Assembly: GCA_021286935.1 (NCBI GenBank)
Contig: JAJTBI010000006.1
Location: forward strand, 1-64,000
Origin: Geobacteraceae bacterium
GTDB lineage: Bacteria; Desulfobacterota; Desulfuromonadia; Geobacterales; Pseudopelobacteraceae
Reading direction: 5' to 3'
Length of the DNA: 64,000 nt
A model generated the notes under the pieces. The model searched no databases, was not told the origin of the DNA, and saw only the letters and a list, made by a program, of their open reading frames with translations. Positions 7,891 to 57,238 of this stretch are shown here, piece by piece. The stretch's first letter is position 1. Every line of letters begins with the position of its first letter. A program made the position numbers and the translations under genes.

Positions 7891-7950
7891 AAATCATAAT
7901 CAGCCTTAGTATGCTTGTCAAGGGGATTCGATAAGTCTTGTTGTTACGTT

Positions 7951-8097
7951 ATGAGCCACTTGCAAAACTACTGCGGAGGCCGTCTACTGCGTTGCGCGGT
8001 GCTCGCTTCTTCGCCTACCTACATTGGTATGTCTCAGTCGCTGCGCGCCGTGCGCCTTGTATCCGGCCTTCCTCATGACATTTTGCAAGAGGCTCAT
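7951..8097. repeat. 147-base palindromic dispersed element, copy 1
   Basis: Ends are near-perfect 17-base inverted repeats: ATGAGCCACTTGCAAAA on the left and TTTTGCAAGAGGCTCAT on the right (16 of 17 pair). The interior also pairs in large part (GGCCG with CGGCC, GCGCGG with CCGTGCGC region). A second copy is at 57030-57172. It begins 14 bases past the stop of the carbonic anhydrase gene. A 66-codon open frame through it is a by-product. Confidence 0.8.
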
Positions 8098-8111
8098 TAT
8101 TTCAACAGGTT

Positions 8112-8744
8112 TTAGACAAGCAGGGTAAATTCGCCACTGGCCGGGTGGTAGCTGTAGAGGTTGCCGGATTCAATATCAAAGTACCAGCCATGCAGGTCCA
8201 GTTTTCCGCTATCAACCCGCTCTTTAACCCAGGGGAAGGTCAGCAGGTTCTCCAGCGATACCAGGATGGAAGCATGCTCGCAGGCCTTGGCCTGGCGCTC
8301 CGCTGAGGCGCCTGCAAAGTTTTCCAGCACCTGCTGCTTGGCCCGTTCAGCAATACTGACCCACTTGCTGATATATTCGCCGTTCTTGTCAGCAGGAATC
8401 CCTTCCATCAGAGAACGGATACCACCGCAGTTGGAGTGGCCCAGTACGATGATATGCTCCACCTCAAGGTGGCAGACCGCATACTCAAGGGCGGCACTGA
8501 CCCCGTGGTAGGCTTGGTCATGTTCGCAGGGGGGGACCAGGTTGGCCACGTTGCGGACAATAAACAGATCACCCGGTTCTGAACGGACCATCATGGAAGG
8601 ATCAACCCGCGAATCACTGCAGCCGATCAGCACCACCTTGGGTCGCTGCCCCTTTTTCAAGCAGTCAAACAGCTCATGGTCTTCATGAAAATATTCTTCC
8701 TGAAAATTACGGAAGCCGTGGATGAATTTCTGGATCTCCTGCAT
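8112..8744 (-). CDS. can: Beta-class carbonic anhydrase
   Basis: The product has 210 residues, the normal bacterial size. Zinc ligands and catalytic pair are visible: C-S-D-S-R (Cys42, Asp44, Arg46) and H-S-N-C-G-G (His103, Cys106). It interconverts CO2 and bicarbonate in the cytoplasm. It lies 13 bases downstream of purE; because the purine pathway here uses bicarbonate through PurK before PurE acts, and the cell also needs bicarbonate for anaplerotic carboxylation, the pairing is metabolically sensible, but that link is inference. Confidence 0.92.
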   Translation of the reverse strand: MQEIQKFIHGFRNFQEEYFHEDHELFDCLKKGQRPKVVLIGCSDSRVDPSMMVRSEPGDLFIVRNVANLVPPCEHDQAYHGVSAALEYAVCHLEVEHIIVLGHSNCGGIRSLMEGIPADKNGEYISKWVSIAERAKQQVLENFAGASAERQAKACEHASILVSLENLLTFPWVKERVDSGKLDLHGWYFDIESGNLYSYHPASGEFTLLV

Positions 8745-56440: not shown

Positions 56441-57028
56441 ATGCATCTATCGGGTGTGAAATGTTTTGTGATGGCCTTGCTGGTGTTCGGAGCAACCGCA
56501 AGCTGGGGTACCGACTACCTCTATGCGCCAAAGCCGTTTGAGGGCGAGGTTGTGGGCGATGGTGTGCTGGTACAGGAAGTTACCGTAAAAAAAGGTGATA
56601 ACCTCTCGCGCATCTCCAAAAAATATTCAGGCCGTGATTACTACTATCCCCAGATTCTGCTCTTTAATGATATCAAAAGGCCCCATTGGATTCAGATCGG
56701 GCAGGTACTGCGGGTGCCTGTTTCCCGCAAAGCAGCCGCTAAACTTGGACAACAGGCTGCAGGAGAAAAAAGGCCGGAACAAAAGTCTCTTACCCATGAG
56801 TTGACCGTGGATGTTCCAAAGAAGAAATCTGAAAAACAGCGCCCCCCTGCTGGTGCCCAGGGCGAGTACAATACCTACAACCGTGGGCTTGAAGCCTACA
56901 AAAAAGGTGATTGTGAAACAGCCATTGCGCAGTTTGATCAGTTTATCAGCCGCTATCCTTCCTCAGCACTGCTGCCTGAGGCTACCTTGAACCGGGCTGA
57001 GTGTTATCTGAAACTTTCGGCAAAATAG
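56441..57028 (+). CDS. LysM plus TPR periplasmic protein
   Basis: The 195-residue product begins one base after the previous stop. It has a signal peptide (about 1-23), a LysM domain (K-K-G-D-N-L-S-R-I-S-K-K-Y to I-Q-I-G-Q-V-L-R-V-P, about 47-93) and a C-terminal TPR like that of YbgF/CpoB (Y-N-R-G-L-E-A-Y-K-K-G-D). LysM binds peptidoglycan glycan, so with its coiled-coil partner it probably anchors an envelope structure to the wall. Confidence 0.8.
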   Translation: MHLSGVKCFVMALLVFGATASWGTDYLYAPKPFEGEVVGDGVLVQEVTVKKGDNLSRISKKYSGRDYYYPQILLFNDIKRPHWIQIGQVLRVPVSRKAAAKLGQQAAGEKRPEQKSLTHELTVDVPKKKSEKQRPPAGAQGEYNTYNRGLEAYKKGDCETAIAQFDQFISRYPSSALLPEATLNRAECYLKLSAK

Positions 57029-57029
57029 G

Positions 57030-57172
57030 GCGCCACTTTCAAAACTACTGCGGAGGCCGTCTACTGCGTTGCGCGGTGCTCGCTCCTTCGCCTAACGAGC
57101 TGTTATGTCTCAGTCACTGCGCGACCTACGCCTTGTATCCGGCCTTCCTCATGACATTTTGAAAAAGGCTCT
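57030..57172. repeat. Palindromic dispersed element, copy 2
   Basis: Matches the element at 7951-8097 over most of its length, beginning GCCACTTTCAAAACTACTGC and ending TTTTGAAAAAGGCTC. Where copy 1 has G pairing with C in the arms, this copy has T pairing with A, so pairing is preserved. It starts just after the stop of the LysM gene. A 64-codon frame through it is a by-product. Confidence 0.8.
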
Positions 57173-57203
57173 AGTAGTTTTAGCGATTGTTGATCCAAAA
57201 CAA

Positions 57204-57238
57204 AACGGGCGTCCTGGTTGGGACGCCCGTTCGTGTTT
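57204..57238. terminator. Strong hairpin with flanking A/T runs
   Basis: AACGGGCGTCC pairs perfectly with GGACGCCCGTT (57221-57231), loop of six, with CAAAA before and CGTGTTTT after. It can end transcripts from either side, from the LysM gene (plus) or the membrane gene at 57426 (minus). Confidence 0.65.

Follow-up and report, generated by a model that had tools for sequence, protein, structure and literature searches.

A probable MITE family of Trichlorobacter with a conserved palindromic core and exchangeable ends

The window, the 64,000-nucleotide stretch of DNA that was analysed, comes from a draft genome that belongs to the genus of Trichlorobacter thiogenes (the Trichlorobacter group) and contains two copies of a palindromic element of about 143 bp. 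Both palindromes lie where the original prediction had placed them, and their exact ends are defined by the TIRs. The full element comprises a quasi-palindromic core of about 76 nt and linkers, which are held between two TIRs of about 15 nt. The features of both copies and their surroundings are the following, with relatives designated G003 (T. thiogenes), G006 and G010.

7949-7952, plus strand: left target-site duplication TTAT of copy 1, from alignment with the empty sites
7953-8095, plus strand: copy 1, a complete type-A element (TIR, core, TIR), delimited by its TIR ends; site empty in G003, G006 and G010
7953-7967, plus strand: left TIR of copy 1, GAGCCACTTGCAAAA
7985-8061, plus strand: core of copy 1 (model R1, 78.5 bits)
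8081-8095, minus strand: right TIR of copy 1, GAGCCTCTTGCAAAA on the minus strand
8097-8100, plus strand: right target-site duplication TTAT of copy 1, preceded by an extra A at 8096, from alignment with the empty sites
8112-8744, minus strand: neighbouring gene with its stop facing copy 1; its carbonate dehydratase match is below the curated cut-off
57026-57029, plus strand: left flank TAGG of copy 2, which includes the TAG stop of the gene at 56441-57028
57030-57171, plus strand: copy 2, a complete type-A element
57062-57137, plus strand: core of copy 2, with the block variant GCGACCTACGCC
57172-57175: right flank TAGT of copy 2, a 3/4 match to the left flank TAGG
57203-57232, no strand assigned: separate intrinsic-terminator-like hairpin just past copy 2; a similar hairpin is found at a relative's empty site

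No open reading frame of 80 or more amino acids lies over either copy, and the 64-kb window has no tRNA genes. Copy 1 folds far better than its shuffled sequences, with z-scores of -6.1 and -6.6 on the two strands, and copy 2 has z-scores of -2.9 and -3.3. The terminator-like hairpin beyond copy 2 is strong and was detected on both strands. The segment 57239-57372, which adjoins copy 2, matches many places in T. thiogenes and is a second dispersed repeat. Both copies had been described as starting within 15 bases of a stop codon. This holds for copy 2, which begins 1 bp past a TAG (57026-57028), but copy 1 approaches its neighbour by its far end (8095), 16 bp from the stop of the minus-strand gene. 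The change from a G/C pair to a T/A pair between the arms is real (CTTGCAAAA/TTTTGCAAG in copy 1 and CTTTCAAAA/TTTTGAAAA in copy 2), but the second of the two differences is uncompensated: the outer C, which has a G as its partner in copy 1, stands opposite an A in copy 2.

The element had been taken for a two-copy one, which is wrong, as a genome-wide search gave 38 matches in the own genome. Counting that genome, matches were found in 18 of the 57 genomes searched. The own-genome copies fall into three groups: those with TIRs of class A (GAGCCTCTTGCAAAA), which include both window copies, those with TIRs of class B (CAGGCTGTTGAAAAA, CAGGGCTTTGAAAAA and variants), and those without recognisable TIRs. 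Among the 31 copies with both arms readable, a known class was recognised at both ends in 13, at one end in 7 and at neither in 11. Three alignments were used, in which related copies are not independent. Alignment A1 holds 76 of the 78 references prepared (without L085 and L087; L042 was also skipped), A2 holds 38 of the 76 rows of A1, and A3 holds 44 of 45 rows (L009 is out). The block variant GCGACCTACGCC, which has three substitutions, is present in 5 of the 76 aligned copies. Its occurrence with class A, B1-like and B2-like ends suggests exchange between TIR classes.

Target-site duplications were sought in the 30 elements with both ends typed, those without script-found core edges having been excluded beforehand. 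An exact 4-bp duplication lies at the TIR edge of 8 of these elements, while 20,000 permutations of the flanks gave 0.9 on average and never more than 6. At least three of the four bases match in 16 elements (permuted mean 4.9), and exact 4-bp matches at other offsets were absent from the same 30. For the survey of empty sites, the flanks of 14 copies were sought in five relatives and the sites were then read. Five TIR-bearing copies, w1 (copy 1), w2 (copy 2), L015, L027 and L031, gave 12 readable orthologous sites, at which both flanks lay together, and all 12 are empty; L014 and L022 are left out of this count. The arrangement TTAT-element-A-TTAT at copy 1 corresponds to a single TTAT (or TCAT) in G003, G006 and G010, and the L031 site has two ATAA here and one in the relatives. 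L027 is inserted on the stop codon of its left-hand gene. Copy 2 has a duplication of 3/4, and its empty site in G010 has diverged. The core-only copies L033 (also in G003 and G006), L035 (also in G003) and L036 (also in G006) are each absent from at least one relative, and L034 is absent from all three relatives read. The core-only copies are older than the TIR-bearing ones; they have lost their ends and kept the core, and many of them lie next to stop codons.

Some sites read otherwise than their gap sizes implied. The sites of L026 and L030 appeared to be occupied in relatives, but on reading they hold partial or other sequences: G006 carries roughly one half of L026 and some 19 bp of L030, and neither is in the other relatives read there. 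The element found in G010 and G006 at the site of L038 is reversed in orientation and is not an ortholog of the same copy. L038 is core-only here, its counterparts L248 and L249 in two relatives have class-B-like ends and the opposite orientation, and a third relative is empty. This points to repeated insertion or inversion at this gene end.

Insertion sequences with both TIR types occur in relatives. They are 1.3-1.4 kb long and encode DDE transposases of the IS5/IS1182 kind. Autonomous partners with matching ends are found for class B in G006 and G010 and for class A in genomes G082 and G086. In G006 the class-B insertion sequence, of about 1.33 kb with a 364-aa transposase, has nine copies, and G010 has one insertion sequence with class-B ends; the transposases match NF033581 (IS5 family) with 286 and 246 bits, the cut-off being 140. 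Identical 4-bp flanks were read at six of the nine G006 copies (L161, L165, L167, L168, L169 and L170); L159, L163 and L166 are without them. The class-A insertion sequences have 1397 bp, TATT/TATT flanks and a 368-aa transposase in G082, and 1410 bp and a 382-aa transposase in G086. Their transposases are above the cut-offs of PF01609 and PF05598 and under every NCBIfam cut-off, the best scores being 69 and 83 bits for the IS1182 model (cut-off 270). None was found in the own draft genome, where a single PF01609 locus is without such ends. Tracing toward the class-A insertion sequence led to contig edges and one diverged place. The class-A TIR is present in 42 of the 76 genomes of the family, with a reversed control near-empty. 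It encloses several palindromic interiors that are unrelated to one another, and 4-bp duplications accompany most of them; one pair of ends thus carries many interiors. In several family genomes, class-A ends with mostly 4-bp duplications surround CCCTCCCCC-type hairpins (L176, L177, L179-L183, L185 and L186). At L133 (G002:C1:1345600-1347600, about 421-560), class-B-like ends surround another palindromic core, GCGTAGCAGCGCTACGCC.

The elements are thus short, without coding capacity, bounded by TIRs and 4-bp duplications, multicopy and precisely absent from empty sites, as MITEs are. Together with the insertion sequences of relatives that have the same ends, and with a core common to both TIR classes and to distant taxa, this makes it very probable that they are a MITE family, presumably moved in trans by the DDE transposase of insertion sequences with the same TIRs. 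A full-length insertion sequence would make the transposase, and insertion would duplicate 4 bp of the target. The arms would change together mainly because both ends must suit the same transposase. After insertion the TIRs would decay while the core lasts, an order of decay that we infer. Several observations count against the MITE explanation: no class-A insertion sequence was found in the own draft genome, 11 of the 31 copies have neither end of a known class, copy 2 has only a 3/4 duplication, and the arms of a distant genome, G154, behave differently.

Compensation between the arms had been taken to imply that the fold matters. The arms are TIRs that fall into two or more classes, each matching its own insertion sequences, and matched change is therefore expected without any role of a fold. 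Part of the claim survives, as core pairs outside the TIRs also show double changes (TAAC/GTTA versus TACC/GGTA; GC versus CG). In alignment A2, whose 38 rows were hand-picked as TIR-bearing so that the score for arm pairing is inflated, the TIR arms have double changes in 9 of 14 pairs, with a score of 0.391 versus 0.133 when shuffled, a value also inflated by relatedness. The core in the same alignment has double changes in 6 of 31 pairs and a covariation score of 0.174 versus 0.122 when shuffled, likewise inflated by relatedness. An unselected test of the arms in 62 Trichlorobacter rows gave a mean match of 7.31 for own arms versus 4.52 for swapped ones, which was reached in none of 5,000 permutations. 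The co-variation is thus real, but it is chiefly a property of transposon ends. By itself, arm co-variation in palindromic repeats is no evidence of RNA function.

The genome G154, of another family, has nine copies whose arms are nearly copy-specific, have a fixed length of about 16 nt and match their partners within each copy (own mean 8.5, cross mean 4.67; 0 of 20,000 permutations). These copies have no obvious duplications, and about five of them have a GGCTG-type end. Their matched arms are not explained by TIR classes alone, with one TIR per transposase; hairpin-templated homogenisation and selection on the stem are candidate causes. The former would mean that the hairpin homogenises its own arms, a nascent strand switching template within the palindrome during replication and carrying the changes of one arm over to the other; template switching that makes inverted-repeat arms alike is described for yeast and for quasipalindromes of Escherichia coli in the parts available of two papers (PMC8604942, PMC7202029). 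In the arms, G-T mismatches are not above A-C mismatches (10 vs 19, as whole-element minus core counts), which a process at the DNA level predicts. Against this, 13 of the 31 own-genome copies have unmatched outer arms, so that the process is not universal, and each of the large TIR classes has its own insertion sequences. Such non-compensating arms had been named beforehand as evidence against a role of the fold, yet the fold has other support. That homogenisation adds to transposition by way of the TIRs is a tentative possibility.

The fold could also act as RNA, with selection at gene ends for a 3'-end hairpin that serves as terminator or stabiliser. For 23 of the 38 own-genome copies, an open frame of 80 codons or more points at the copy and has its stop no farther than 15 bp away, compared with 14% of intergenic positions in the single 64-kb window. 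The core pairs are 97.9% standard and show the double changes given above. Old core-only copies shared between species are 93-96% identical, about as high as their mostly coding flanks (87-96%), and these four comparisons at three loci hint at selection to retain the core. Any function that the core may have is one that we infer. The preference for gene ends can be explained by targets that contain TAA or TAG and by harmless insertion there; insertion beside stop codons would be tolerated, and such targets would favour these sites. G-T and A-C mismatches are about equal in 15 cross-taxon copies (68 vs 63, summed), and the minus strand gives the better fold in 37 of 53, which gives no indication of an RNA read from one strand. 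An excess of G-T, which would be a strand-specific signature of RNA, is seen in the related Trichlorobacter set (118 vs 35) and was not relied on, as it is absent from the cross-taxon copies. Furthermore, a separate terminator already lies beyond copy 2, copy 1 has no terminator-like match, Rfam covariance models gave no match to the element, and the TIR-bearing copies are missing from orthologous sites. Selection as an RNA hairpin is doubtful.

It is very unlikely that a mobile core enters pre-existing palindromes, such as terminators, whose arms belong to the sites. The nearly copy-specific matched arms of G154 would suit this, but their length is constant, and neither arm is present at the sites that are empty of copy 1, L027 or L031, which rules it out for Trichlorobacter. 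A REP/REPIN element moved by a RAYT (a Y1 tyrosine transposase), a link that the original prediction had suggested looking for, is scarcely credible: the copies are palindromic, intergenic and multicopy and the own genome has three Y1 transposase matches, but there are 4-bp duplications and DDE-type TIRs, a scan of 8 RAYT/Y1 loci gave no core match, and G154, where the element has 9 matches, is without a Y1 match. T. thiogenes has 28 Y1 transposase matches, most of them truncated by contig ends, and this is a multicopy element that breaks the assembly.

The core also occurs far from Trichlorobacter. Its exact 20-base pattern was found in 40 stretches across the contig collection, in Trichlorobacter, Geobacter, Halomonas and relatives, Methylophilus, Methylotenera, Gallionellaceae, other Nitrosomonadales and Candidatus Troglogloeales, a list that is a lower bound and biased toward this core by the requirement for an exact match. 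The right half of the core, which lies outside the search pattern, is conserved in distant taxa as well. The ends in distant taxa are unlike those of Trichlorobacter and are palindromic in most. Of 15 cross-taxon copies, 5 have TIRs together with an identical 4-bp duplication; the null has a mean of 0.35, and none of 500 null draws reached this count. The same core is combined with two TIR classes in the own genome and with other TIRs in Halomonas, Methylophilus, Gallionellaceae and Troglogloeales. Within the phylum of the window the core has a patchy distribution, occurring in 10 of 395 genomes under strict filters. Carriage by phages or plasmids was considered and rejected, the element being nearly absent from both and from viral contigs: the core pattern had no match in viral contigs, a Troglogloeales copy had none in phages or plasmids, and the window copy matched one of 72,556 plasmid records, from Nitrosomonas. 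A single hairpin core may have spread through several phyla (that of Trichlorobacter, Gamma- and Betaproteobacteria, and Troglogloeales), repeatedly gaining new end pairs that are rewritten together through the hairpin, with the core selected, partly as a domesticated gene-end element. This wider scenario is speculative and rather improbable.

MITEs are usually viewed as ends and filler, with the TIRs conserved and the inside free. The present element reverses this view, as its inside is conserved over large distances and its ends change in step. This opens testable questions, namely how a non-autonomous element switches transposase and whether hairpin-templated repair rewrites both ends together. 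Worth pursuing are both the conservation of a core whose ends are exchangeable and the copy-specific but matched arms of G154.

Several known systems resemble this element in part. In Geobacter metallireducens, several sets of multicopy intergenic sequences have been read as regulator sites or RNAs, according to the available part of the description (PMC2700814). These are likewise dispersed palindromic families. The central palindrome of one of them, GRCGTAGCGCTGCTACGCC, resembles the core between the class-B-like ends of L133 in G002, and interiors between class-A ends (L176 and others) resemble their CCYTC-repeat class; the CCCTCCCCC-type hairpins are possibly the class read there as regulator sites; they differ in that the core of our element is not named in that part of the paper. 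The Chunjie MITE of Geobacter uraniireducens, as cited in the available part of a review (PMC10969869), is also a Geobacter MITE with tens of copies, but its full length is 235 bp, versus 143 bp here; the two are set apart by description and not by sequence. In the literature searched for the core letters and for similar MITEs or repeats, with subscription journals mostly outside the coverage, the core is not described. REP/REPIN elements with a RAYT are also palindromic and multicopy, but here there are target duplications and DDE TIRs, and a link to a RAYT was looked for without success. MITEs of IS5-like insertion sequences are likewise short and non-coding, with TIRs and 4-bp duplications that match the full-length insertion sequences of relatives. 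They differ from the present element, whose single core occurs with two TIR classes within one genome and, in other phyla, with additional TIRs, and persists where the TIRs are lost.
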